Assembly: GCF_000265245.1 (NCBI RefSeq)
Contig: NZ_AJKS02000002.1
Coordinates: 1-64,000 of the forward strand
Reading direction: 5' to 3'
DNA length: 64,000 nucleotides
Origin: Halomonas smyrnensis AAD6
GTDB lineage: Bacteria > Pseudomonadota > Gammaproteobacteria > Pseudomonadales > Halomonadaceae
In this document: piece by piece, positions 8,885-55,297 of the stretch
Position numbering within the stretch: position 1 is the first letter of the stretch
How the letters are laid out: each line of letters begins with the position of its first letter
Notes under the pieces: model-generated
What the model was told of the DNA's origin: nothing
What the model saw: the letters and a program-made list of their open reading frames with translations, nothing else
The model's database searches: none
Made by a program: the position numbers and the translations under genes

Positions 8885-8930
8885 GGTGATCCTCTCGGTG
8901 CCCACCGCACCGGCATGGAATGACTCGACG

Positions 8931-9130
8931 CGACAGGCCGGTCTCCGGGCTCAGAAGGGGCACTCGCCGGGGCATGGCCGTGGGCGTCGTGCCGTGATCC
9001 GCACCTTCCCGGCATGTCGCCAGTGGTCGTCGCGGATCGCGCTTCATTACCGTTGCGGGGGCAGCGCTGGGATCGGCCGTGGCCTCACCAGACTTCCCGA
9101 TTATCCCCTGGACCTCAGGGGCACCTGTCT
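8931..9130 (-). ncRNA. Cobalamin riboswitch of the cob operon
   Basis: On the minus strand the conserved cobalamin elements occur in order: GGTGCC, GGGAAGTCTGGTGAGGCC, the invariant core GCTGCCCCCGCAACGG, CCACTGG (B12-box region), CCGGGAAGG, and AGCCCGGAGACCGGCCTG. It lies directly after a plausible promoter and before the leader ORF and cob genes. Expected behaviour is repression by adenosylcobalamin. I see no clear intrinsic terminator, so control at the leader ribosome binding site is more likely. Confidence 0.93.
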
Positions 9131-9140
9131 TCGAACAAGT

Positions 9141-9170
9141 ATCCTAATGGACCGGACCTGTCCCGCGCAA
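9141..9170 (-). promoter_or_regulatory. Probable sigma-70 promoter of the cob operon
   Basis: On the minus strand TTGCGC (9170-9165) and TAGGAT (9146-9141) are separated by 18 bases. The predicted start, about 9134, coincides with the 5' end of the riboswitch. Confidence 0.5.
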
Positions 9171-17360: not shown

Positions 17361-17447
17361 GGGAGTCCTTGCTCACCGTGCTCACCCGCACGGCGTCTCG
17401 GTTTTTTTATCGAGCCGCGAGACTGCTTTGCGCGTCGCGGCGTGGGC

Positions 17448-17637
17448 TCTCGGGCCGGTCTCCGGGCTGACGAGCGAGGCGCCTGTGCGCCTCCACACCG
17501 CCGCCTTCCCGTGCGTGGCACAGTGGCATATGGCGGTGCGTGACTCGATCACCGTTGCGGGGGCAGCGTCGGACTGGATCACCGACTTCCCGTTTACCCG
17601 GGCCTGTTTGGGCAGGCTTCCGGGTCACCTGAGAGTG
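17448..17637 (-). ncRNA. Cobalamin riboswitch of the btu operon
   Basis: On the minus strand it shows CAGGTGACC, GGGAAGTCGGTGAT, the core GCTGCCCCCGCAACGGTGAT, TGCCACTGTG, CACGGGAAGGCGG and AGCCCGGAGACCGGCCCG. It is the second copy in the window and controls uptake rather than synthesis. It starts at the predicted transcription start and ends about 90 bases before btuB. Confidence 0.95.
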
Positions 17638-17643
17638 CGGCGT

Positions 17644-17672
17644 AAGCTAGCAATCGCCTACCGGGGCGTCAA
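17644..17672 (-). promoter_or_regulatory. Probable promoter of the btu operon
   Basis: On the minus strand TTGACG (17672-17667) and TAGCTT (17649-17644) are 17 bases apart. The predicted start near 17637 is the 5' end of the riboswitch. Confidence 0.55.
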
Positions 17673-45685: not shown

Positions 45686-46093
45686 ATGCCCAGCAAGGCT
45701 CCCACCATCGTACGCGAGATCATGTCGCGCGACTGCTATCGGGTCACCGGCAAGACGTCGGCCAGCACCCTGGCCCAGGGCCTGGCCCTGCACCGGCTGC
45801 CCGGTGCGCCGGTGGTCGACGAACGCGACCATCTGATCGGCTTCATCTCCGAACAGGACGTGCTCGGCAAGCTGCTGGAAAGCGCCTACCTCGATGACGA
45901 ACCGCCGCTGGTCAGCGAGCTGATGCGCAACGAGGTGCTCTCCGTGGCGCCGTCCAAGAGCATCACCGACCTGGCCCAGGAGATGCTGGGCGCCAAGCCC
46001 AAGATCTATCCGGTCACCGAGCAGGGGCGGCTCGTCGGCATCGTGACCCGGCGCGACGTGCTCAGCGCCATTCTGCGCATGCGCCACGCCTGA
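45686..46093 (+). CDS. CBS-pair protein
   Basis: 135 residues, two CBS domains and nothing else: MSRDCYRVTGKTSASTLAQG with GAPVVDERDHLIGFISEQDV, then LMRNEVLSVAPSKSITDLAQ with KIYPVTEQGRLVGIVTRRDV. Such proteins bind adenine nucleotides and act as energy sensors or regulatory subunits; the partner here is unknown. GAGGAG precedes the ATG, and a -10-like TATGAT lies near 45557. Confidence 0.85.
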   Translation: MPSKAPTIVREIMSRDCYRVTGKTSASTLAQGLALHRLPGAPVVDERDHLIGFISEQDVLGKLLESAYLDDEPPLVSELMRNEVLSVAPSKSITDLAQEMLGAKPKIYPVTEQGRLVGIVTRRDVLSAILRMRHA

Positions 46094-46116
46094 GCCACCG
46101 CTTCCGCCCGTTTCCC

Positions 46117-46143
46117 GACACCCGGCCCGCCTGGCCGGGTGTC
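46117..46143 (+). terminator. Hairpin after the CBS gene
   Basis: GACACCCGGCC (46117-46127) pairs perfectly with GGCCGGGTGTC (46133-46143) around a five-base loop, 23 bases after the stop. No T-tract follows, so it is a weak or Rho-assisted terminator. Confidence 0.5.
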
Positions 46144-46187
46144 GGCGTCTAGGGGGCACGAAGGCGCATGACGAAGACGGAGGTCAT

Positions 46188-46217
46188 AAAAAACCGCCTC
46201 ATCGAGGATGAGGCGGT
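46188..46217 (-). terminator. Intrinsic terminator facing the minus strand
   Basis: On the minus strand ACCGCCTCATC (46217-46207) pairs perfectly with GATGAGGCGGT (46203-46193) around a three-base loop, followed by six T. No annotated minus-strand gene lies upstream before the tRNA, so it may end a small RNA. The rest of 46094-46408 contains only the tRNA promoter. Confidence 0.6.
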
Positions 46218-46366
46218 GAAGGATCGAATCGCAAGCTAGATCAACAGTGCTAGCGACTGCCATCGCTACTGTCGTCTGCACCTGTTCTGACAGTGTTGGC
46301 AGGAAAAGTTCAGACGGCGACGAAAAAATTCCACGCTACCTATCCGGTGCCCGCTCACGACCGGGG

Positions 46367-46394
46367 TTGTCATCATTAAGCCATTGGCTATATT
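46367..46394 (+). promoter_or_regulatory. tRNA-Gly promoter
   Basis: TTGTCA (46367-46372) and TATATT (46389-46394) are 16 bases apart. The predicted start is about eight bases before the tRNA. Confidence 0.65.
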
Positions 46395-46408
46395 ATCGAA
46401 ATCGCCTC

Positions 46409-46482
46409 GCGGGTGTAGCTCAATGGTAGAGCAGAAGCTTCCCAAGCTTAAGACGAGGGTTCGATTCCCTTCACCCGCTCCA
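46409..46482 (+). tRNA. tRNA-Gly (anticodon CCC)
   Basis: 74 nt including an encoded CCA. GCGGGTG pairs with CACCCGC in the acceptor stem. The D-arm contains TAGCTCAATGGTAGAGC, the anticodon loop TTCCCAA carries CCC at 34-36, and the T-arm contains AGGGTTCGATTCCCT. The 3' end is the integration site of the adjacent island and is preserved intact. Confidence 0.95.
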
Positions 46483-46483
46483 T
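46462..46483 (+). repeat. attL (tRNA-Gly 3' end)
   Basis: CGATTCCCTTCACCCGCTCC followed by AT. It lies inside the intact tRNA gene and is identical to 54952-54973. Confidence 0.9.
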
Positions 46484-46629
46484 ATCTATCCTAACCTCCT
46501 GTTTTCAAAGAAAACTCCCACCTTTCATGGGGTTAGGTGCTACGGTAATGGCTACACAAGTGGCTACACCTCGTCCCCGCTCCACTGATACCCTCGCCCC
46601 ATCGAGCATCATGCGATTGGGGGATCATC

Positions 46630-46706
46630 ATGGCCAGGGGCAGACCTAACGACACCCGAAGCCTTCGCCAGCGTGGAAACGTCTGGTTCATCAACAAGCG
46701 CCTTGT
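46630..46706 (+). pseudogene. Integrase N-terminal remnant
   Basis: The ATG at 46630 opens MARGRPNDTRSLRQRGNVWF and INKRLV, resembling the N-terminus of a phage-type tyrosine recombinase. It is cut after about 25 codons by the left end of the IS3-family element. The sequence beyond the other IS end (from 49321) does not continue as a recognisable integrase, so the rest was lost. Confidence 0.55.
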
Positions 46707-47031
46707 TCTGGTCAAGTCAGAGCGGACACGTTTTCAAGCCGCAGTTGCCAGCTCAATCTCCCTCGGTGACTGGTAGCCGAGGGTCGAGTGGAGCCGGCAA
46801 CTGTTGTACTCCATCTCGATATATTCGACGACATCGCGCCGTGCTGCCTGGCGGGTCCCATATCGCTGGTTAGCCAGCCACTCGCTTTTCAGTGAACCGA
46901 AGAAGCGCTCCATCACGGCGTTGTCCCAGCAGTTTCCCTTGCGGCTCATTGATGCCTGGAACCCATGCCGATCCAACGTGGATCGGTAGTCATGCGACGC
47001 ATATTGGCTGCCGCGGACGCCCTTCTAAGTG

Positions 47032-48111
47032 TCAAGTAGCGATTTGCGTCTGATTGATCTCGCGGTAACGGTGGCGCAGCACGTAGTACAGCTCTCGGGC
47101 GATGTAGCGTTTCAGACAGCGAATAGCTTCCAGCTTGGAGTGCCCCTCCGTCACTCGCCGGGAGACATACGCCTGGGTTGTCGCATCCAGGCGCAGCCGC
47201 CCGATGGCGATGATATGCAGAGCACTATTGGCGGCTCTGTCGCCGCCCCGATTAAGGCGGTGGCGCTGTGTCTTGCCTGAAGAAGCGGGTATCGGGCTAA
47301 CACCACATAGCGCCGCAAAACTGGCTTCTGAACCAATACGATCCGGATTGTCGCCCGCCGTGATCAACAACTGTGCAGCTGATTCATAGCCTACCGCCGT
47401 TCGCGACACCAGCTCTGGTGCCAGCTCATCGACGATGGCCTTGATCATGACATTCAGATCGGCCACCTCGTCATGCAGCTCCAGGTAGCGCCGGGCAAGA
47501 GATTTCAAAGCGATGCGGTAGGCCATTGTGACGTCCCGATAGCCACTTAAGTCGGGGCGCCATGCGGCCAACGTCCGAATCAACTGCATCCGCGTCATAT
47601 TCCTCAACTGATCGCGCAGCTCCTCTGGCGCGGAGATCACCTGGGTCTGGATCATCTGAAGCGCCACACGGCGAGCTGCCACGGCGGTCTTCCGGCAGAC
47701 CTTCAGCACACGCAAGGCCTCGATCATGCCATCACGGGTCTTTGGGGTGACCGTACGAATGCCCGCGTAAGCCGCATGGGCGGCGTTCTCCGCATCGATG
47801 GTATCGTTTTTGCCCCGTTTGCGACGCACGGTCTTGTCGGGCGTGGTGACCTCCAGGGTAGCGATGCCGGTGCGCTGCAAGTAACGCAGCAGACCAGCCC
47901 CATAGGTCCCGGTGCACTCGATGCCTACTCGGCTCACTTCACCGAAGCCACGCATCCAGGCGAGCATGGCCTTGTAGCCATGCCGGGTGGTCGGAAAGCT
48001 GGCGGTACCAAGCACGCGATCGTGTTTATCCACGACAGCGGCCATATGCAGATCCTTGTGGGTGTCGACGCCACCGACAATGTCAGGGCGATCACGGTGA
48101 TGCTGAGTCAT
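47032..48111 (-). CDS. IS110-family DEDD transposase
   Basis: 359 residues. GVDTHKDLHMAAVVDKHDRV contains the first Asp, RVGIECTGTYGAGLLRYL the Glu, and KNDTIDAENAAHAAY the next Asp. The C-terminal transposase_20-type domain has AALCGVSPIPASSGKTQRH and NRGGDRAANSALHIIA with the conserved Ser. The frame is intact, so the element may be functional. Confidence 0.92.
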   Translation of the reverse strand: MTQHHRDRPDIVGGVDTHKDLHMAAVVDKHDRVLGTASFPTTRHGYKAMLAWMRGFGEVSRVGIECTGTYGAGLLRYLQRTGIATLEVTTPDKTVRRKRGKNDTIDAENAAHAAYAGIRTVTPKTRDGMIEALRVLKVCRKTAVAARRVALQMIQTQVISAPEELRDQLRNMTRMQLIRTLAAWRPDLSGYRDVTMAYRIALKSLARRYLELHDEVADLNVMIKAIVDELAPELVSRTAVGYESAAQLLITAGDNPDRIGSEASFAALCGVSPIPASSGKTQRHRLNRGGDRAANSALHIIAIGRLRLDATTQAYVSRRVTEGHSKLEAIRCLKRYIARELYYVLRHRYREINQTQIAT

Positions 48112-48406
48112 GACGTCTCTCCAGGCTATCAGGTCAAGGTGGCTTCACCGAGTGCGATAGCCTGGACACGACAGTAACGAGACAGGCGTCAGGCCCTTCT
48201 TGAGTCACATGCATCGACGAGGTGAGCCCTCGCCGTCAGGTATTCCCGGATCACCGACAGGTCCGTGGAAAGACACACTACCCGGGTCGATCAGAGTGGG
48301 AGTCAGGAGATCCGAGAACCCTTACGGCACCAGGTCTTTCAGCATAGGTCGATCGCTGTGTGAGTCAGGTCAACCCCGGAACACCTGGCATCTCCCAGTA
48401 TTACTG
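48112..48406 (-). ncRNA. Noncoding left end of IS110 element, candidate bridge RNA
   Basis: 295 bp between the element end and the transposase start, with no credible ORF. In the IS110 group, the region upstream of the transposase encodes a structured bridge RNA that pairs with target and donor DNA. An octamer TCGCTGTG at 48353-48360 is also found in the target right at the junction (48407-48414), as a target-guide segment would be. RNA status is inferred. Confidence 0.5.
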
Positions 48407-48971
48407 TCGCTGTGATGGATCAATCCGCTCTTGGGCTGCCGGCGACCTACGGCCATCTCCAGGGCGTCCAGAACCAACTGCGTGCGCATGTGGTCCGCCA
48501 TCGACCAGCCCACCAGTTTTCGGTCGTGGAGATCGAGCACCGCCGCCAGATAGAGCCAGCCCTCAAGCGTCCAGATTGCCGTGATATCGGCCACCCAGGC
48601 CCGGTTCGGCGCGGACACCATGAATTGGCGGTTTAGCAAGTTGGGTGCCACTGGCAGGGTGTGCTGGCTATCGGTCGTATGACGCCAGCGTCGCCGCTGC
48701 CGTGCCTCTATGCCGGCTTCCCGCATCAGTCTGCGGGCCTGGTAACGGCCGACCTCGTAGCCGCGGCGTCGCAGCTCTATGGCCATGCGGCGGCTGCCGT
48801 AGCTGCCGCGCTTTCGGCGATGGATCTCTCTGACCTCTCGAAGCAGGGCCCGTCGATGATCATCAGGGCCACGCCGTCGCCAAGCATAGAAACCGCTCCG
48901 GCTGACCCGCATGACGCGACACAACACGGCCACGGGATAGGTGGCCTTCTCCGACTCGATGAACTGGTATC

Positions 48972-49262
48972 TCAGCTCGACTCTTTGGCGAAGAAGGCCG
49001 CCTTTTTTAGAATATCCTTTTCAACCTGAAGCTTACGAACTTCTTCGCGGAGCTTCTTGATCTCGGCGTCGCGATCGTCCTCCTGCCGCTCCGGGGTGCT
49101 GGAAACCTGCTGATGGTGCTTGCGGCACCAACGATCCAGCACGCTGCGCTCCACTTCCAGGCGCCGGGCGGCCTCGGATACGGAATACCCCTGATGGGTC
49201 ACCAGGCTCACCGCATCCGCCTTGAATTCATCGGAATACCGACGTCGAGTCTTCTTGGTCAT
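48972..49262 (-). CDS. IS3-family OrfA (helix-turn-helix)
   Basis: 96 residues. RRRYSDEFKADAVSLVTHQG and YSVSEAARRLEVERSVLDRW form the helix-turn-helix, followed by a leucine-zipper-like coiled coil (EIKKLREEVRKLQVEKDILK). The ATG at 49262 has GGAGG five bases upstream. An AAAAAAG slippery heptamer (minus, 49008-49002) lies near its end and leads into OrfB by -1 frameshifting. Confidence 0.9.
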   Translation of the reverse strand: MTKKTRRRYSDEFKADAVSLVTHQGYSVSEAARRLEVERSVLDRWCRKHHQQVSSTPERQEDDRDAEIKKLREEVRKLQVEKDILKKAAFFAKESS

Positions 49263-49488
49263 GAACACCTCCATTGCCTCCATTATGAGGCTTATCGGGG
49301 TGTCCGCTCCAATTGGACCACTTCAGAATGCGGCATCACTGAAGAGGAGCGGCGGGCGCTCCGTGACAGCCGTTTGCAGCAGTTGACTCATGAACTACGC
49401 TGAAATCCGCAATGCAATGTGCATATCGCTATTTCTTTTTTTCCGATCTGTCTCACAAATTTAGGCTGGATCGTAGCGACCAAACATG

Positions 49489-49520
49489 AAAGCACCCCGG
49501 CCACATAACCGGGGCGCTTT
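49489..49520. terminator. Bidirectional hairpin terminator
   Basis: AAAGCACCCCGG (49489-49500) pairs with CCGGGGCGCTTT (49509-49520) with one mismatch. It lies about 75 bases past the stop of the light-sensor gene on the minus strand and has A/T-rich flanks on both sides. Confidence 0.7.
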
Positions 49521-49596
49521 GTATGGAAGGTGCTAATCGAAGAAACTTCAATTAACGAATTCTAATGCAATCCAGTGGGGCGCGAGGGAGCCCACC

Positions 49597-52500
49597 TCAG
49601 AATTCAGAAGTTCGAGCAAGCAACTGCTCCAGTTGTTCAATAGGCATCGGCTTTGCCAGCAAGAACCCCTGAAAGATCTCGCACCCATAATCAGCCAGGC
49701 ACTGCAACTGATCTTCCGTCTCCACTCCTTCGGCTACGACCTTCAGCCCCATGTGTTGGGCCATTGAGATGATACCCTGAACGATTGCCCTATCATTGTC
49801 ATCCTCAGTCAGGTCGCGGATGAAACTACGATCGATCTTGACCTTGCTGACCGGCAGTTGCTTCAGATAGCTAAGGCTGGAGAAGCCTGTGCCGAAATCA
49901 TCGATAGCTACGCCTACGCCCAAATCGCGAAGAGCATGCAGGATCGAGATGGCGACATGCTTGTCCTCCATCAATACGCCCTCAGTGACCTCTAGCTCGA
50001 GCCAATGCGGGGGAATGTGGCTTTCCTCTAACTGCTGTTCGAGGCGGCTAAGGAAGGTGGGACGTTGGAACTGCATGGGAGACAGATTGACGGCCACACT
50101 ACATTCCCCGCCCCCGAGTTGCTGCAGAATCGGCAAGTCTCGACAGACCTGTTCCAATACCCACTCACTGATAGGGATAATTTGACCAGTGATTTCCGCA
50201 ACCGGGATGAAGCTGCCGGGTGAGACCTGCCCCTTGGTCGGGTGCTGCCAGCGAATGAGCGCTTCGAAACCCAACACATCACCGTCATAACTCATCAGCG
50301 GCTGATAATGCAGGGAGAACTCTTCTCTCTCGATGGCCTCCTGAATGTCCTTTCGCAACTCCACACGCTCGGAGAGCTCAGGCTTGAAGTGGTTATGGTA
50401 CCAAATCGCCGTGTTACCGCCCTGCTTCTTGGCGGCATACATGGCGCTATCAGCCCGCATGATCAGTTGTTCGGGATGCTGTAACGACACCTCCCGGCTC
50501 GAGGCCATACCGATGCTGGCAGAGAGTCGGAAGACGTGATCGTCTACCTGGTAAGAGCGTGTCAGTTCTGCCAACAGTCGGTCGACAACTGCTTGCGCTT
50601 GATGCTCGCTCTTAAGGTTTGGCAACAACACCAGAAACTCGTCGCCTCCGAAACGCCCAAGGGTGTCACCGGGACAAAGCTCGGCGGCGAGGCGCTCGGC
50701 AACAGCAATCAGCAGGCGGTCTCCCATAGCGTGACCAAAAGTATCGTTGATCGGCTTGAAGTCATCGAGATCAATGAAGAACACCACCAGCAAGCCATTC
50801 CGGTGGCGGGCGATGTCAGCGTCGTGCTTCAGGCGCTCTTCAAACTTCGCGCGATTGTAGGCTCCCGTCAGAGGGTCGTGGCTTGCCTGGTGAGCCAGCG
50901 CAGCCTGATCGGCAATACTCTCGGTGACATCGTTAATCACCCCAATGTAGTGGGTAGTCTTCCCCTGTGCATCGCGCACCGGTGAGATATGCAGATCATT
51001 CCAGAACCACTCGCCACTCTTGCGATAGTTGCACACCGTTACGTGGACATCACGCTGATCGTCGAGTCCTCGCCGAATTTCCTGAACAACCTTGGGGTCG
51101 GTCTCGTGTCCCTGAAGGAAGCGACAGTTCCGCCCCTTGATCTCCGCGTTGCTATAGCCAGTGATGCGGCTAAAGGCATGGTTGGCGAAGATAATCGGCA
51201 TATCTGGAAGAGTGGCATCCACGATCAATATGCCATGGAGGCTGGCCTCAACGCTGCGCTCCAGTATATGTAACCGGGTTTCATCTGCCTTGCGCGCAGT
51301 AATGTCCTTGGCGATGCCAAAAACCCCAGTCACTCGATCGCCCATCGTGATGGGAATGGCCGTAACATCCAGCACGTGGAGAGCGCCGCGCACGTCCCGA
51401 CTCTGCAGCTCGTACCGGAGAGCATGACCGGCCCGGGCACTCTCGAGTAGCGCTTGCCCTTGGGGAATGTCGCCTGTGTCGACGAACTGTGAAAAGTGTT
51501 TGCCCAGCATCTCGCTGGTCGGCAGCCCCGTAATCTCCGCAGCTTGCGGGTTCAGGCTCAAGAACTGCCCTTCCAGATTCAACGAGAAGACCGCATCGGG
51601 GTGATGCGTAAACAGGGAACGATAGCGCTGTTCGCTATCGACAAGAGCCTGACGGTCACGGTGGCGCTCGATGGCCAGCGCGACAAGGTCCACGGCCTTG
51701 CTGGCCAACTGACGTTCCTCGTCACTTGGTGCACCCCGTTCAGAGTGATACAGCGCCACTGTCGCCAAGACTTGTCCACGAGACGAAATTACCGGAAATG
51801 ACCAGCAGGCGGCGAGCTCATGGTTTTTTGTCAGGCCTTGATAACCCGCCCAGCGAGGGTCAGTTGCCAGATCCTCGCAAACAACCAGCTCGCGTGAGTA
51901 GGCTGTACTGCCGCAGGCACCGATTTCTGGGCCGATCTTCACGCCAATGAGCGCTTGCAGGTAGCCGCTGGGCAAGCTGGGGCCAACAACGTCCTTGAAA
52001 TAGGTCTGTGTCTCATCACACAGCATGATCGAACAGTAGGCCCCCGGCACCTGGCGCTCCAGCATCCGGCAAACCGCTTCCAGCGACTTCTCTTGAGAGA
52101 CCTCTTTGGCAATCAGGGCCTGGGCCCGATACTGATGCTGGAGCTGTCGATTGGCAAGATCCAACTGCCGCGCACGAGCCTGGCTCAGTCTCATGACCCC
52201 GATACTGAAAGCCAGCAGATAGCTCAGGATCAGGCTCCCGGCCCCCACGCCGGTGGAAAGCAGCGATGAGGCCGACCAAGGACCAGGGGGGCCCCCGAAG
52301 ATGGCTAGGTGCAAGGAGGGCGCGCCAGAAAACTCGATGGCGCGCCTGGCAAGCGGGTGCCAGGCCTGATCGCTATCGTTATACGCATTGTCTAGCGCCA
52401 CCACTTCTCCCAGTAGTCGATCACCCTGCTCGACATGCAGCACATAGCCGTCCAGTTCGGAGCGCATCTCCCGAAGAAGCAGCATGTCCAGATCTAATAG

Positions 52501-53604
52501 AACGATCAGACGACCCGCCCCCAGGCCGTCAATAGGGAACACAATCAGCGCCTTCAATGGCTGATCTGGAGAGGGAAACAGCCACTTGAGTGAATTGCCT
52601 TGAGAAAACAGCCGCTCCATAACGTCATCGTCGTCAAGAAAGGCCTCTAAACGGGACAGCGCCTCAGTGTTCTGCGCTTTGCGCCAGCTTACGGTCCCCG
52701 CCCCATCAATGAAGGCGATGCCTTCCAGGGCCGAGAGATCGCGCAAGTAGCTATCTACCTCCTGTGCTTGCAATGAAGCCGTGGGCTGACCTCCCAATAC
52801 GTTCCAGCGCTCCCCCATACGCTGTAACGCCTGCTCATGGCGCTTGATGGCCGCTTCGCCGGTCAGCTCGGCCACATCCGCCACTTGGTGCGCTTGCTCC
52901 GCTTCGACCTGCTGTTGCTGCCAGCCGATAAGCAGCCAGCCGAGGGTGCTAAGGGTGACTCCGATCACAGCGGCGAAGCAGAGCCCCCGACCAAGTATGA
53001 GGGGAAAACGCTGCCAGTTTTTTGCCACATAGCACATCGCCAAGCCGAAGCATGAGTAGAAGCCACTGGACAGAGGGCTGCTCATCCGCTGCAGCTCATG
53101 CCATGTGTCGTAGCGTGTGGGTACCAGGACCACCAAGAGGCTGGCCAAGCCCACTAAGAAGAGCCCGCCACCAATGACCTTAAAATACCAGCGCCTGGCC
53201 TGCCCCCGCACGCCAAACCATAGGCCGACAGCGATCATCAGGGACACGGTGGCGGAGACGGCCTGCAAGCTTCCCTTCCCCGCTACGCTATCGAGGCTCA
53301 CTCGCTGCGGGGAGCCCCCCACGTCCTCGACCAGTAGATAAACGGCAAAGAAAGCCAGCAGGACTGACAGGCATAAGCGCCACCGCCGGTGATCCTGGAT
53401 CAACGCTAGAAGGCCAAGCCCGGCCAGCAGCCCTGACACAGCACTGCCAGGCGTGACCTGCAGGCCAGCCGGCAGATGAAAATCCAGCCCCAGTTGAGCT
53501 AAGAGTGCACCAAAAAATCCCATTGCGGTGGTGCCGGCAATCAGCATCAACAGCCCGGTATCCCCTGCCAGATGCTGATGCTGATACTTGTGTGCAGAAT
53601 CCAT
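49597..53604 (-). CDS. Membrane GAF-PAS-LOV-GGDEF-EAL c-di-GMP protein (probable blue-light sensor)
   Basis: 1335 residues. The first ~235 residues form several membrane helices, then a probable periplasmic domain (235-445) and another helix near 455. GAF (about 490-640), PAS (650-765), LOV (775-880), GGDEF (895-1060) and EAL (1075-1330) follow. The LOV core GRNCRFLQGHETD (near 825) has the flavin-adduct Cys, with NYRKSGEWFWNDLHISPV behind it. The cyclase motif RFGGDEF is intact, but the inhibitory RxxD position reads CPGD. The phosphodiesterase motifs EALIRWQHP, ELEVTEGVL, AIDDFGTGFSSLSYL and VVAEGVETEDQL are complete, so both activities are possible. It is the main cargo of the island. Start: ATG 53604 with AGGA ten bases upstream. 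Confidence 0.9.
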   Translation of the reverse strand: MDSAHKYQHQHLAGDTGLLMLIAGTTAMGFFGALLAQLGLDFHLPAGLQVTPGSAVSGLLAGLGLLALIQDHRRWRLCLSVLLAFFAVYLLVEDVGGSPQRVSLDSVAGKGSLQAVSATVSLMIAVGLWFGVRGQARRWYFKVIGGGLFLVGLASLLVVLVPTRYDTWHELQRMSSPLSSGFYSCFGLAMCYVAKNWQRFPLILGRGLCFAAVIGVTLSTLGWLLIGWQQQQVEAEQAHQVADVAELTGEAAIKRHEQALQRMGERWNVLGGQPTASLQAQEVDSYLRDLSALEGIAFIDGAGTVSWRKAQNTEALSRLEAFLDDDDVMERLFSQGNSLKWLFPSPDQPLKALIVFPIDGLGAGRLIVLLDLDMLLLREMRSELDGYVLHVEQGDRLLGEVVALDNAYNDSDQAWHPLARRAIEFSGAPSLHLAIFGGPPGPWSASSLLSTGVGAGSLILSYLLAFSIGVMRLSQARARQLDLANRQLQHQYRAQALIAKEVSQEKSLEAVCRMLERQVPGAYCSIMLCDETQTYFKDVVGPSLPSGYLQALIGVKIGPEIGACGSTAYSRELVVCEDLATDPRWAGYQGLTKNHELAACWSFPVISSRGQVLATVALYHSERGAPSDEERQLASKAVDLVALAIERHRDRQALVDSEQRYRSLFTHHPDAVFSLNLEGQFLSLNPQAAEITGLPTSEMLGKHFSQFVDTGDIPQGQALLESARAGHALRYELQSRDVRGALHVLDVTAIPITMGDRVTGVFGIAKDITARKADETRLHILERSVEASLHGILIVDATLPDMPIIFANHAFSRITGYSNAEIKGRNCRFLQGHETDPKVVQEIRRGLDDQRDVHVTVCNYRKSGEWFWNDLHISPVRDAQGKTTHYIGVINDVTESIADQAALAHQASHDPLTGAYNRAKFEERLKHDADIARHRNGLLVVFFIDLDDFKPINDTFGHAMGDRLLIAVAERLAAELCPGDTLGRFGGDEFLVLLPNLKSEHQAQAVVDRLLAELTRSYQVDDHVFRLSASIGMASSREVSLQHPEQLIMRADSAMYAAKKQGGNTAIWYHNHFKPELSERVELRKDIQEAIEREEFSLHYQPLMSYDGDVLGFEALIRWQHPTKGQVSPGSFIPVAEITGQIIPISEWVLEQVCRDLPILQQLGGGECSVAVNLSPMQFQRPTFLSRLEQQLEESHIPPHWLELEVTEGVLMEDKHVAISILHALRDLGVGVAIDDFGTGFSSLSYLKQLPVSKVKIDRSFIRDLTEDDNDRAIVQGIISMAQHMGLKVVAEGVETEDQLQCLADYGCEIFQGFLLAKPMPIEQLEQLLARTSEF

Positions 53605-53653
53605 CGAAGCTCATTCCTTCCTGGCTGACGAATGGCCGAGGCCCTGATTAATA

Positions 53654-53681
53654 CTTTTTGGAATATAAAAATTCCAAAAAG
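53654..53681. promoter_or_regulatory. Perfect 11-bp inverted repeat before the light-sensor gene
   Basis: CTTTTTGGAAT (53654-53664) and ATTCCAAAAAG (53671-53681) surround a six-base AT loop, 50-77 bases before the start codon in AT-rich DNA. It could be an operator or a leader hairpin. The small open frames in 53605-53792 are not convincing. Confidence 0.5.
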
Positions 53682-53792
53682 CTATAAAAAAATCACAATC
53701 CTGCGATACTTTGCACTGGCGCATGCAGCAAAGAAAAAAGAAACCAAGCAATATTAACACCATACACGAGAAAAGATGGTGTGCCGCATTCA

Positions 53793-54880
53793 TAAGTGGC
53801 TATTCAAAATTAATCGCGTGATCAGACCCGTAGCCACCGAGTAGGCGATAGACCTCGCTGCAGAGGCGATCAAACGAGAGGTAGGCACTCAGCGGCAGCC
53901 ATGCGTACTTCATCTGCCGCCACAGAATCTCTATCAGATTCAGCTCCGGCGAGTAAGCCGATAGGTAGACCAGGTGCACACGATGCGACATCCACTCCAC
54001 TATCTTCCTCCTGAAAGCCTTGGAGCGATGCATGCTGGCATTGTCGAGCACCACGATGGCGAAGGTATCGGGGTCTTTCTGGGCCACAAACTGATCAAAT
54101 GCTTCGATGACCGTCTCGGTCGTCACCGGTTCCGTGGAGGTGTGGTAGACCAGCTTCCCGGCTCGGCTGAGGAACCCCAGTACGTTCAGCCTTCGGCTAT
54201 GGGAGTAGGCGGTCACTTCGAACGGCTGACCGATGGGACTCCACGCGTATGGCACCGACGACGATTGTGAAAAGCCTGACTCATCAAAGTAGTAGACCTC
54301 GTGTTCGCCTTGGTCTTCCCGCTGCTGAAGCACCTTGAGAAGGCCTTGAGTGTTGCGGAAATCCGTTTCGTCACGCCGAGCCTTCAGGGAATGCCGAATG
54401 CGCTTGAAGCTGAGGTTATTTTTTTTTCAACGCCCGGCGAAGGGTCACCGTGCTGACCGTCTTGCCGGTCTCTTCTTGAAAACGAGCCTGCAAGGATCGA
54501 ATCTGGTGAGGCTGCTCGGCGACCATTTCCTGCAATCGCTGGTGGTCGTGCTCATCCAGGATTGGCGTGCGACCGCTGCGGGGCTTGTCGATAAGCCCGT
54601 CAAGCCCTGTCGCCTCCCACTGCTTGAGCCATCGAGATACGGCATCTCGGCGAACCTGCAATATCTCACTGATTTGGTTGATCGTATGGCCCTGATCACT
54701 CAGCAGGATGGCATGAGCGCGCCTGCGTAGGGGGCGCTTCTCACCATGGTGATAGGCAGAGGTCAGTGTTTGCTTTTCAGATTCAGTGAGAGAGGCAACG
54801 AAGCGGCGCCTTGCCATGGGTTCATCCGTGTCAGTGATCCAAATATCTATACTACACGAAAACTTCAGATCAGGCACTTA
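53793..54880 (-). mobile_element. IS630-family insertion sequence
   Basis: About 1.09 kb with TA at each end and short inverted ends (TAAGTGGCT at 53793, TAAGTGCCT on the minus strand from 54880). TA targeting is the IS630/Tc1 habit. It contains a two-frame transposase. Confidence 0.8.
53800..54817 (-). CDS. IS630-family transposase in two frames joined at an A9 run
   Basis: ORF1 (54817-54416, 133 residues) is a helix-turn-helix domain: RRRAHAILLSDQGHTINQIS, VRRDAVSRWLKQWEATGLDG, ending in RRALKKK at nine A. ORF2 (ending 53800) carries the DDE domain: VYYFDESGFSQSSSVPYAW (Asp), VVLDNASMHRSKAF (Asp) and YSPELNLIEILWRQMKY (Glu). The frames are offset so that loss of one A (or a +1 shift) at 54427-54419 fuses them. 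This may be programmed slippage or a real mutation. Confidence 0.8.
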
Positions 54881-54951
54881 CTGTAGCGGCTACAGATGAC
54901 TACTCCGATAACGTAAACCACTGATTTTAGTACTAATTGCGGAGAGAGGGG

Positions 54952-54973
54952 CGATTCCCTTCACCCGCTCCAT
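54952..54973 (+). repeat. attR (duplicate tRNA-Gly 3' end)
   Basis: Identical to 46462-46483. It is not part of a complete tRNA here, which marks the right edge of the island. Confidence 0.9.
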
Positions 54974-55027
54974 CGGCACATCCCGATACCTGCATTATCT
55001 TTCGGTTCAGAGCCCGGCTCTCCGCTG

Positions 55028-55297
55028 TCACTGCCCCGGACGTCCGCTAAGCGCACGCTGCCCCGAGGCGACGCGTCGCCCCGTGCTGCCATCGATGGCC
55101 ACGCCTCCGGCTACCCGGATGCTGTCGACTGCCCGGCGCTCAGCCCGCTCGCTCACCTCGACCAGCGCCGTCGGATCGAGGCGATGAATCTCTCGGCCGA
55201 CCACATGGATCGCCCCCTGTTGCTGAAAGCGAGCCGGCACGCGACGGATGGTCTCCAGGGCCAGGTCGAGATCGCTGCCGACATCCGCCCGGGTCAT
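55028..55297 (-). CDS. Hypothetical protein
   Basis: 89 residues, acidic to basic, no membrane segment. Third-position GC is high as in neighbouring real genes, and the frame is closed upstream by a stop near 55340. Segments such as LDLALETIRRVPARFQQQGA and LVEVSERAERRAVDSIRVAG suggest a folded protein, but I recognise no family. It could be the remnant of a longer gene beside the island edge. Confidence 0.45.
   Translation of the reverse strand: MTRADVGSDLDLALETIRRVPARFQQQGAIHVVGREIHRLDPTALVEVSERAERRAVDSIRVAGGVAIDGSTGRRVASGQRALSGRPGQ

Follow-up and report, generated by a model that had tools for sequence, protein, structure and literature searches.

A predicted membrane multi-sensor GGDEF-EAL protein with a glutamine-free LOV domain on a decayed tRNA-Gly element

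The gene described here lies in a 64,000-nucleotide stretch of contig NZ_AJKS02000002.1 (positions 1 to 64,000, hereafter the window), from a host that we infer to be Halomonas in the wide sense. An intact open reading frame (ORF) of 1335 codons encodes a predicted enzyme of cyclic di-GMP (c-di-GMP), a messenger for biofilm formation and motility. Its domain order, as obtained from Pfam, AlphaFold2 and structure comparison, is seven transmembrane helices (7TM), dCache, one further transmembrane helix (TM), GAF, PAS, LOV, GGDEF and EAL. The gene sits between the attachment (att) repeats of an element inserted at tRNA-Gly. As judged from alignments, its main oddity is the replacement of the LOV active-site glutamine by Ile890, which an earlier reading of the DNA letters alone (the original prediction) had overlooked. 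The features of the gene are as follows.

49597-53604, minus strand: multi-sensor c-di-GMP enzyme gene, intact ATG-start ORF, 1335 residues
52273-52920, minus strand: periplasmic dCache/PDC-like domain, residues 229-444 (AlphaFold2 and structural matches)
51667-52083, minus strand: GAF domain (GAF_2), residues 508-646 (Pfam)
51289-51627, minus strand: PAS domain (PAS/PAS_4), residues about 660-772 (Pfam)
50905-51267, minus strand: LOV domain, residues 780-900 (Pfam PAS_9 at 791-895 and LOV structure matches)
51124-51126, minus strand: Cys827, adduct cysteine in GRNCRFLQ (alignments)
50935-50937, minus strand: Ile890 where LOV domains usually have the active-site glutamine (Q in the aligned 9vf7 and 3t50; clade table)
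50413-50886, minus strand: GGDEF domain, residues 907-1064 (Pfam), GGDEF motif intact
50665-50676, minus strand: inhibitory-site (I-site) position, CPGD instead of canonical RxxD (alignment)
49648-50352, minus strand: EAL domain, residues 1085-1319 (Pfam, 266 bits), key residues kept
53648-53659, minus strand: AAAAAGTATTAA, 43 bp upstream of the start codon, present in three homologues too

The membrane helices, periplasmic domain, GAF, PAS, LOV, GGDEF and EAL domains of the original prediction were borne out by Pfam and AlphaFold2. Zero Pfam families reached the cut-off in residues 1-500 of the protein, and in the N-terminal parts of 57 aligned homologues each family appeared in at most three at E 0.1, with a best E-value of 7e-4. 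The AlphaFold2 model of this part, based on the 57-row alignment, has a mean predicted local distance difference test score (pLDDT) of 87.4 and, as read from its list of helices, starts with seven membrane helices; residues 229-444 form a domain, and another helix follows from residue 445. Residues 229-444 match 2p7j with Z 14.9 (root-mean-square deviation 3.2, 199 residues aligned) and KinD, LuxQ and AHK4 with Z 13.8-14.7; the best Foldseek E-value is 2e-4. In the predicted model this segment is a dCache/PDC-type double PAS-like fold with a membrane helix on either side. The 7TM part had no counterpart among the listed structural matches, which span residues 222-449. The C-terminal model has a pLDDT of 84.2 and a predicted template modelling score of 0.42, and because of the latter value its domain arrangement was left unused. 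In NCBIfam, 45 families matched; among the 25 listed, only two domain models were above the cut-off and all equivalogs were below it. The 7TM and dCache-like N-terminal sensor (window 52105-53604) has matches with E of at most 1e-20 in 111 of 275 family genomes.

By its sequence, the LOV segment is a true flavin-type LOV domain. Its top-scoring hits in the PDB are LOV proteins (9vf7, E 4.3e-38; 3t50, 8.5e-34; aureochrome; phototropin), and it has all nine residues of a LOV marker list taken from PMC9098866 (YtvA positions 59, 61-66, 94 and 104), namely G824, N826, C827, R828, F829, L830, Q831, N859 and N869. An ordinary PAS domain without flavin contacts, the outcome that the original prediction had named as contradicting it, is not what these matches indicate, although the glutamine contact is absent. 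The position of Ile890 corresponds to Q513 of AsLOV2 and Q123 of YtvA. With nine of nine marker residues, where at least eight are needed, and isoleucine at the Q123 position, the domain has the characteristics of LOV-dQ proteins, and we assign it to this glutamine-free subgroup because about 350 such natural LOV proteins, mostly with leucine or isoleucine there, have been described (PMC9098866). According to the same source, most substitutions of the glutamine in YF1 leave the light response in place.

The glutamine is found in 11 of 11 same-genus full-length homologues of our first alignment. It is missing from every member of the six-member clade, supported at 100/100 in a 23-row tree, that includes the window protein, where the position is occupied by isoleucine (window protein, G185 and G184), valine (Onishia taeanensis, genome G187, and its relative G188, which count as non-independent because they are identical in the compared columns) or alanine (G107, H. 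icarae). In a 67-row tree the glutamine is absent in 11 rows (five changes), the adduct cysteine in 5 (three changes) and both in 0; this tree omits 19 of 86 aligned proteins, which had no LOV domain, came from a different family or an incorrect frame, or were truncated, oversized or near-duplicate proteins from Pseudomonas. Since the cysteine has been lost in five rows, light sensing seems to be dispensable in the family. Together with the disappearance of the glutamine from the whole clade and the confident model of a dCache-like sensor, this would suit an enzyme to which light is irrelevant, its LOV domain being degenerate or a redox-reading flavin domain and its control coming from the dCache, GAF or PAS input. 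We consider this somewhat unlikely, as all six clade members keep the cysteine and the other eight marker residues, the LOV segment is under purifying selection (dN/dS 0.135, the ratio of nonsynonymous to synonymous divergence from O. taeanensis) and LOV proteins without the glutamine can signal, as reported in PMC9098866. Mirror-image losses, with the cysteine gone and the glutamine kept, occur in the same Halomonadaceae family, three by change to alanine and two to glycine.

For the output domains, alignment agreed with the original prediction on the intact GGDEF motif, the conserved EAL domain and CPGD at the I-site, as it did on GRNCRFLQ in the LOV domain; Pfam likewise indicated an intact GGDEF active-site motif. 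The RxxD inhibitory site is common in GGDEF cyclases and not obligatory. Across the clade the position reads CPGD, RAGD, RAGD, RPDD, RPGD and GPDD, and because four of the six retain RxxD, loss of the site is not a clade trait. The EAL residues E1114 (of the EAL motif itself), N1173, E1205, D1235, D1236, K1256, E1292 and Q1312, a metal-binding and catalytic list that reportedly stems from work on RocR, are present here and kept in six of six clade members. Compared with O. taeanensis, dN/dS is 0.16 overall, 0.37 in the membrane part, 0.29 in the periplasmic part, 0.11 in GGDEF and 0.055 in EAL. At the level of the coding sequence, purifying selection points to a working enzyme, with EAL as its most constrained domain.

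These data also bear on whether the cyclase could be the main output, with light or dark driving c-di-GMP synthesis that CPGD leaves unrestrained. The GGDEF motif would permit this, and the LOV-GGDEF fragment of a Mesorhizobium loti protein is described as a blue-light-repressed cyclase (PMC9098866). The strong constraint on EAL, its complete residue set throughout the clade and the retention of RxxD by most members all argue in the other direction, and we regard a cyclase-led output as unlikely. Two further observations concern these domains. Along the window gene, synonymous divergence (dS) from the homologue L061 is uneven, at 0.29 in the N-terminal membrane part and 1.0 in EAL, which is perhaps a trace of recombination. 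One branch of the family (six loci) has GSDEF instead of GGDEF and DPGD at the I-site; from their sequences, the cyclase is probably inactive in these proteins, whereas the EAL residues are intact.

The element that carries the gene, together with the adjoining native locus, comprises the following.

46409-46482, plus strand: tRNA-Gly (CCC), attachment site (ARAGORN, Rfam)
46462-46483, no strand: attL, 22-bp direct repeat at the tRNA 3' end, exact copy at attR
46484-46703, no strand: element left end, 220/220 identical to the G021 element
46630-46707, plus strand: integrase N-terminal remnant, 26 residues, stopping at IS3; the first 25 equal the start of the G021 integrase
46709-49320, minus strand: IS3-family insertion sequence (IS) in pieces, inverted ends 46709-46729/49300-49320 (81%); rve, HTH_21, HTH_Tnp_1
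47032-48111, minus strand: IS110-family transposase nested in IS3
53793-54890, minus strand: IS630-family copy adjoining attR; a second copy elsewhere in the genome is 99% identical to it
54883-54974, no strand: element right end, 91% identical to the G024 element; much of the stretch 76% identical to that of G019
54952-54973, no strand: attR, 22-bp direct repeat, exact copy of attL
55031-55297, minus strand: Crp/Fnr-like fragment, outside the island in the native locus (HTH_Crp_2, E 1e-5, just under the cut-off)

This is a tRNA-Gly-specific integrative element of 8.5 kb, decayed by IS insertions and without a working integrase. The tRNA island of the original prediction thereby stood, on its att repeats, its low GC, the ends that it has in common with elements of other Halomonas and an empty site in the genome G026. 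The 22-bp repeat also occurs at both ends of the G019 element (21/22 bp there), and the 1-kb bins from 46001 to 55000 have a GC of 0.53-0.61, compared with 0.67-0.70 for the adjoining bins. G026, the closest relative at the site (96% over a 295-bp stretch at the tRNA), has about 20 bp between the tRNA and a flank matching the window from 55428 onward; the site is empty in G016 as well. The counterpart integrase in G021 is intact, with 441 residues, and the integrase start was detected in 12 of 90 genus genomes, the window genome included. Because only 26 N-terminal residues of the integrase are left, the element is a non-autonomous remnant. Besides the LOV gene, the repeats enclose IS110, IS3, IS630, the integrase remnant and a 25-codon open-frame tail at 49326-49403. 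We dropped this tail as a candidate integrase C-terminus, dissimilar as it is to intact integrases; an 18-nt inverted repeat bracketing the gene (49318-49335/53782-53799) was also dropped, equal or better pairs occurring elsewhere in no meaningful place. Genes resembling the Crp/Fnr-like fragment lie at the same place in G022 and G023 (by eye). The elements of G021, G019 and G024 have the integrase and a serine-recombinase-like protein (by eye) in common, and tRNA-Gly (CCC) serves as a hotspot at which the inserted content varies (five loci).

Relatives of the gene point beyond the genus. A first contig scan with the single protein as query gave zero relatives. A profile scan of named genome contigs with a GAF-PAS alignment gave 327 matches, and among the best 80, which were kept, the top match was O. 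taeanensis, with 87% over the GAF-PAS query. The whole gene is 83.5% identical to its O. taeanensis counterpart in DNA and 83% in protein. A gap of 47 bp separates that copy from the same tRNA-Gly; its order and orientation are those of the window, and it is near-identical to the copy in G188, which is beside the same tRNA. In a search of the N-terminal part across the 275 family genomes, identities were 79% for G187 and G188 and 53-55% for G107, G184 and G185; the other listed matches were at most 36%. Viral contigs held zero relatives; among the 5000 best plasmid records none covers 80% or more of the protein, and its N-terminal 500 residues had no plasmid match. The H. icarae clade member (G107, locus L165, 8353-12722) likewise has a tRNA about 300 bp from its end, here a tRNA-Thr (CGT), and the two are again arranged tail to tail.

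In the 23-row tree, a hand-picked subset, the window protein groups with O. taeanensis and G188 (100/100), inside the Onishia group, that is, the seven genomes forming the genus group of O. taeanensis; the 67-row tree gives the same placement. Approximately unbiased (AU) tests rejected both a grouping of the Onishia-group rows without the window protein (p-AU 1.5e-6) and a pairing of the window protein with H. icarae (p-AU 1.7e-57), p-values that are optimistic because the choice of groups followed inspection of the first tree. The GC content at third codon positions (GC3) is 0.668 in the window gene, compared with 0.82-0.93 for five native genes close to the island; the corresponding values are 0.672 for the Onishia copy and 0.64-0.74 for five of its neighbours. 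Composition and tree, both read from sequence, indicate horizontal acquisition from an Onishia-like donor within the Halomonadaceae. The horizontal acquisition proposed in the original prediction is in line with this. Its statement that the gene is the sole substantial non-IS gene of the island holds between the repeats, but the gene is not confined to the island, having 83% relatives in two Onishia-group genomes.

The matching position, order and orientation of the gene in O. taeanensis and G188, together with a search of both loci in which a second att copy was looked for and none found, could be explained if the gene were an old inherited resident of the tRNA-Gly locus, lost in relatives, with the element inserted alongside. 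We consider this very improbable. The window gene sits between attL and attR, its GC3 is donor-like, and the alternative groupings were rejected; moreover, empty sites are seen in G026, in G016 and in three of the seven Onishia-group genomes, in which the interval from tRNA to flank is 26-51 bp, the interval being about 6.3 kb with the gene in two others and about 10-12 kb without it in the remaining two. In G189 and G186 the interval is occupied by other genes, with zero matches to the G021-type integrase.

Upstream of the gene, AAAAAGTATTAA occurs once in the window and in 0 of 100 shuffles. In O. taeanensis, G188 and G185, where the remaining upstream DNA is barely alignable, it precedes the start codon by 37-38 bp; it is absent from the G184 and H. 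icarae loci. It is present in 10 of 194 loci, by coordinates all copies of the same gene fronts.

Taken together, we favour, with a probability of roughly 60%, a membrane multi-sensor c-di-GMP enzyme controlled by a glutamine-free LOV domain and brought by the tRNA-Gly element from an Onishia-like donor. Periplasmic dCache-like, GAF, PAS and flavin LOV inputs would feed a single GGDEF-EAL module. Blue light would most likely form an adduct between Cys827 and the flavin. As Ile890 occupies the glutamine position, the change at flavin N5 would have to be relayed without glutamine, possibly by way of water molecules, the route that Dietler et al. suggest for receptors of this kind, and the signal would then pass through signalling helices to shift the balance between GGDEF and EAL. 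The main output would be expected to be c-di-GMP hydrolysis by EAL, with possible cyclase activity free of I-site control. The gene arrived on the 8.5-kb element, whose integrase was then disabled by IS insertions.

Several points weigh against this interpretation. Signalling without the glutamine is frequently attenuated (Dietler et al. 2022, PMC9098866), and in the natural M. loti example, as that paper describes it, the LOV-GGDEF part was tested and not the EAL output. A sigma-70-like promoter scan upstream of the gene found none. For the window gene, dS between the host and O. taeanensis amounts to 0.58, a little less than for PutA (0.75) and CBS (0.71), with 1.27 for mem and 2.29 for AraC; because 0.58 is near the PutA and CBS values, the donor would be a relative of O. 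taeanensis and not, recently, O. taeanensis itself. Finally, the alignment with Onishia is limited to the ORF plus 19 bp, except for the upstream 12-mer, which leaves the capture of the gene unexplained.

The host, which the original prediction had described as halophile-like, is Halomonas-type. Its genome has nine EAL domains above the cut-off, that of the window gene included, and two PilZ proteins. At least two other LOV-motif proteins with the glutamine are encoded, a GAF-PAS-LOV-TGDEF-EAL protein of 874 residues and a short LOV protein of 165 residues (domains by eye), along with two weaker PAS/LOV-like matches on contigs C22 and C25. Because of the resident 874-residue LOV-GGDEF-EAL and the short LOV protein, calling the window gene an acquired light switch is too strong. 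Elsewhere in the window are two cobalamin riboswitches, at 8919-9143 and 17436-17647 (minus strand), with 98.8 and 90 bits.

The GGDEF-EAL module matches the PDB entries 5m3c ('Diguanylate cyclase', the closest, E 1.2e-113) and 4rnh ('Motility regulator', E 3e-102), the latter of which we take to be MorA; both matches are restricted to residues 904-1330, and the sensor parts differ. Glutamine-bearing Halomonadaceae proteins (three loci among others) have the same full-length order 7TM-dCache-GAF-PAS-LOV-GGDEF-EAL at about 44% identity, and in ten such genes checked GC was within 0.08 of the flanks. Mobile elements of the SXT/R391 type (integrative and conjugative elements) are said to carry diguanylate cyclases, and the LOV protein on a Pseudomonas syringae island is reportedly a histidine kinase. 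The P. syringae case (Moriconi et al. 2013; cited in PMC4844311) resembles the window in having a LOV photoreceptor as island cargo. A Vibrio alginolyticus island carries a diguanylate cyclase that alters biofilm and motility of its recipients (PMC10672970), again a c-di-GMP enzyme as mobile cargo, with no light sensor mentioned in the parts of that report used here. GGDEF, alone or with EAL, is coupled to LOV in about 18% of the bacterial LOV proteins (PMC4844311), and fold changes above 10,000 have been reported for LOV-activated cyclases (PMC12805367). The M. loti LOV-dQ-GGDEF-EAL protein (WP_140774521.1) is similar to ours in coupling a glutamine-free LOV domain to GGDEF-EAL; compared by its description only, it has methionine at the glutamine position instead of isoleucine (PMC9098866), and the window protein differs from it in the additional 7TM-dCache-TM-GAF-PAS part in front and in its location on a mobile element. 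The clade is unreported in the open-licence literature that we searched on Halomonas LOV and LOV-GGDEF-EAL proteins, although the supplementary LOV-dQ list of PMC9098866 may include it. Each piece of the window gene has a precedent; the gene is ordinary in kind and unusual in its missing glutamine.

For a long time LOV domains were assumed to need the active-site glutamine, and most of the evidence to the contrary comes from mutants. The clade provides a natural set of glutamine-free LOV proteins, and glutamine-bearing relatives of the same architecture, along with others that have lost the cysteine, permit direct comparison. Tentatively, the clade may go back to a single glutamine loss followed by drift among the aliphatic residues isoleucine, valine and alanine, with selection maintained on the cysteine and the other marker residues, and represent a horizontally spreading, glutamine-independent receptor line whose altered polarity or lifetime would suit a hydrolase with periplasmic ligand input. 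If true, such a line would add to the glutamine-type LOV-GGDEF-EAL protein of the host and not replace it. On the sequence evidence, the window gene is a candidate light- or ligand-responsive c-di-GMP enzyme that has moved between genera through one tRNA site.

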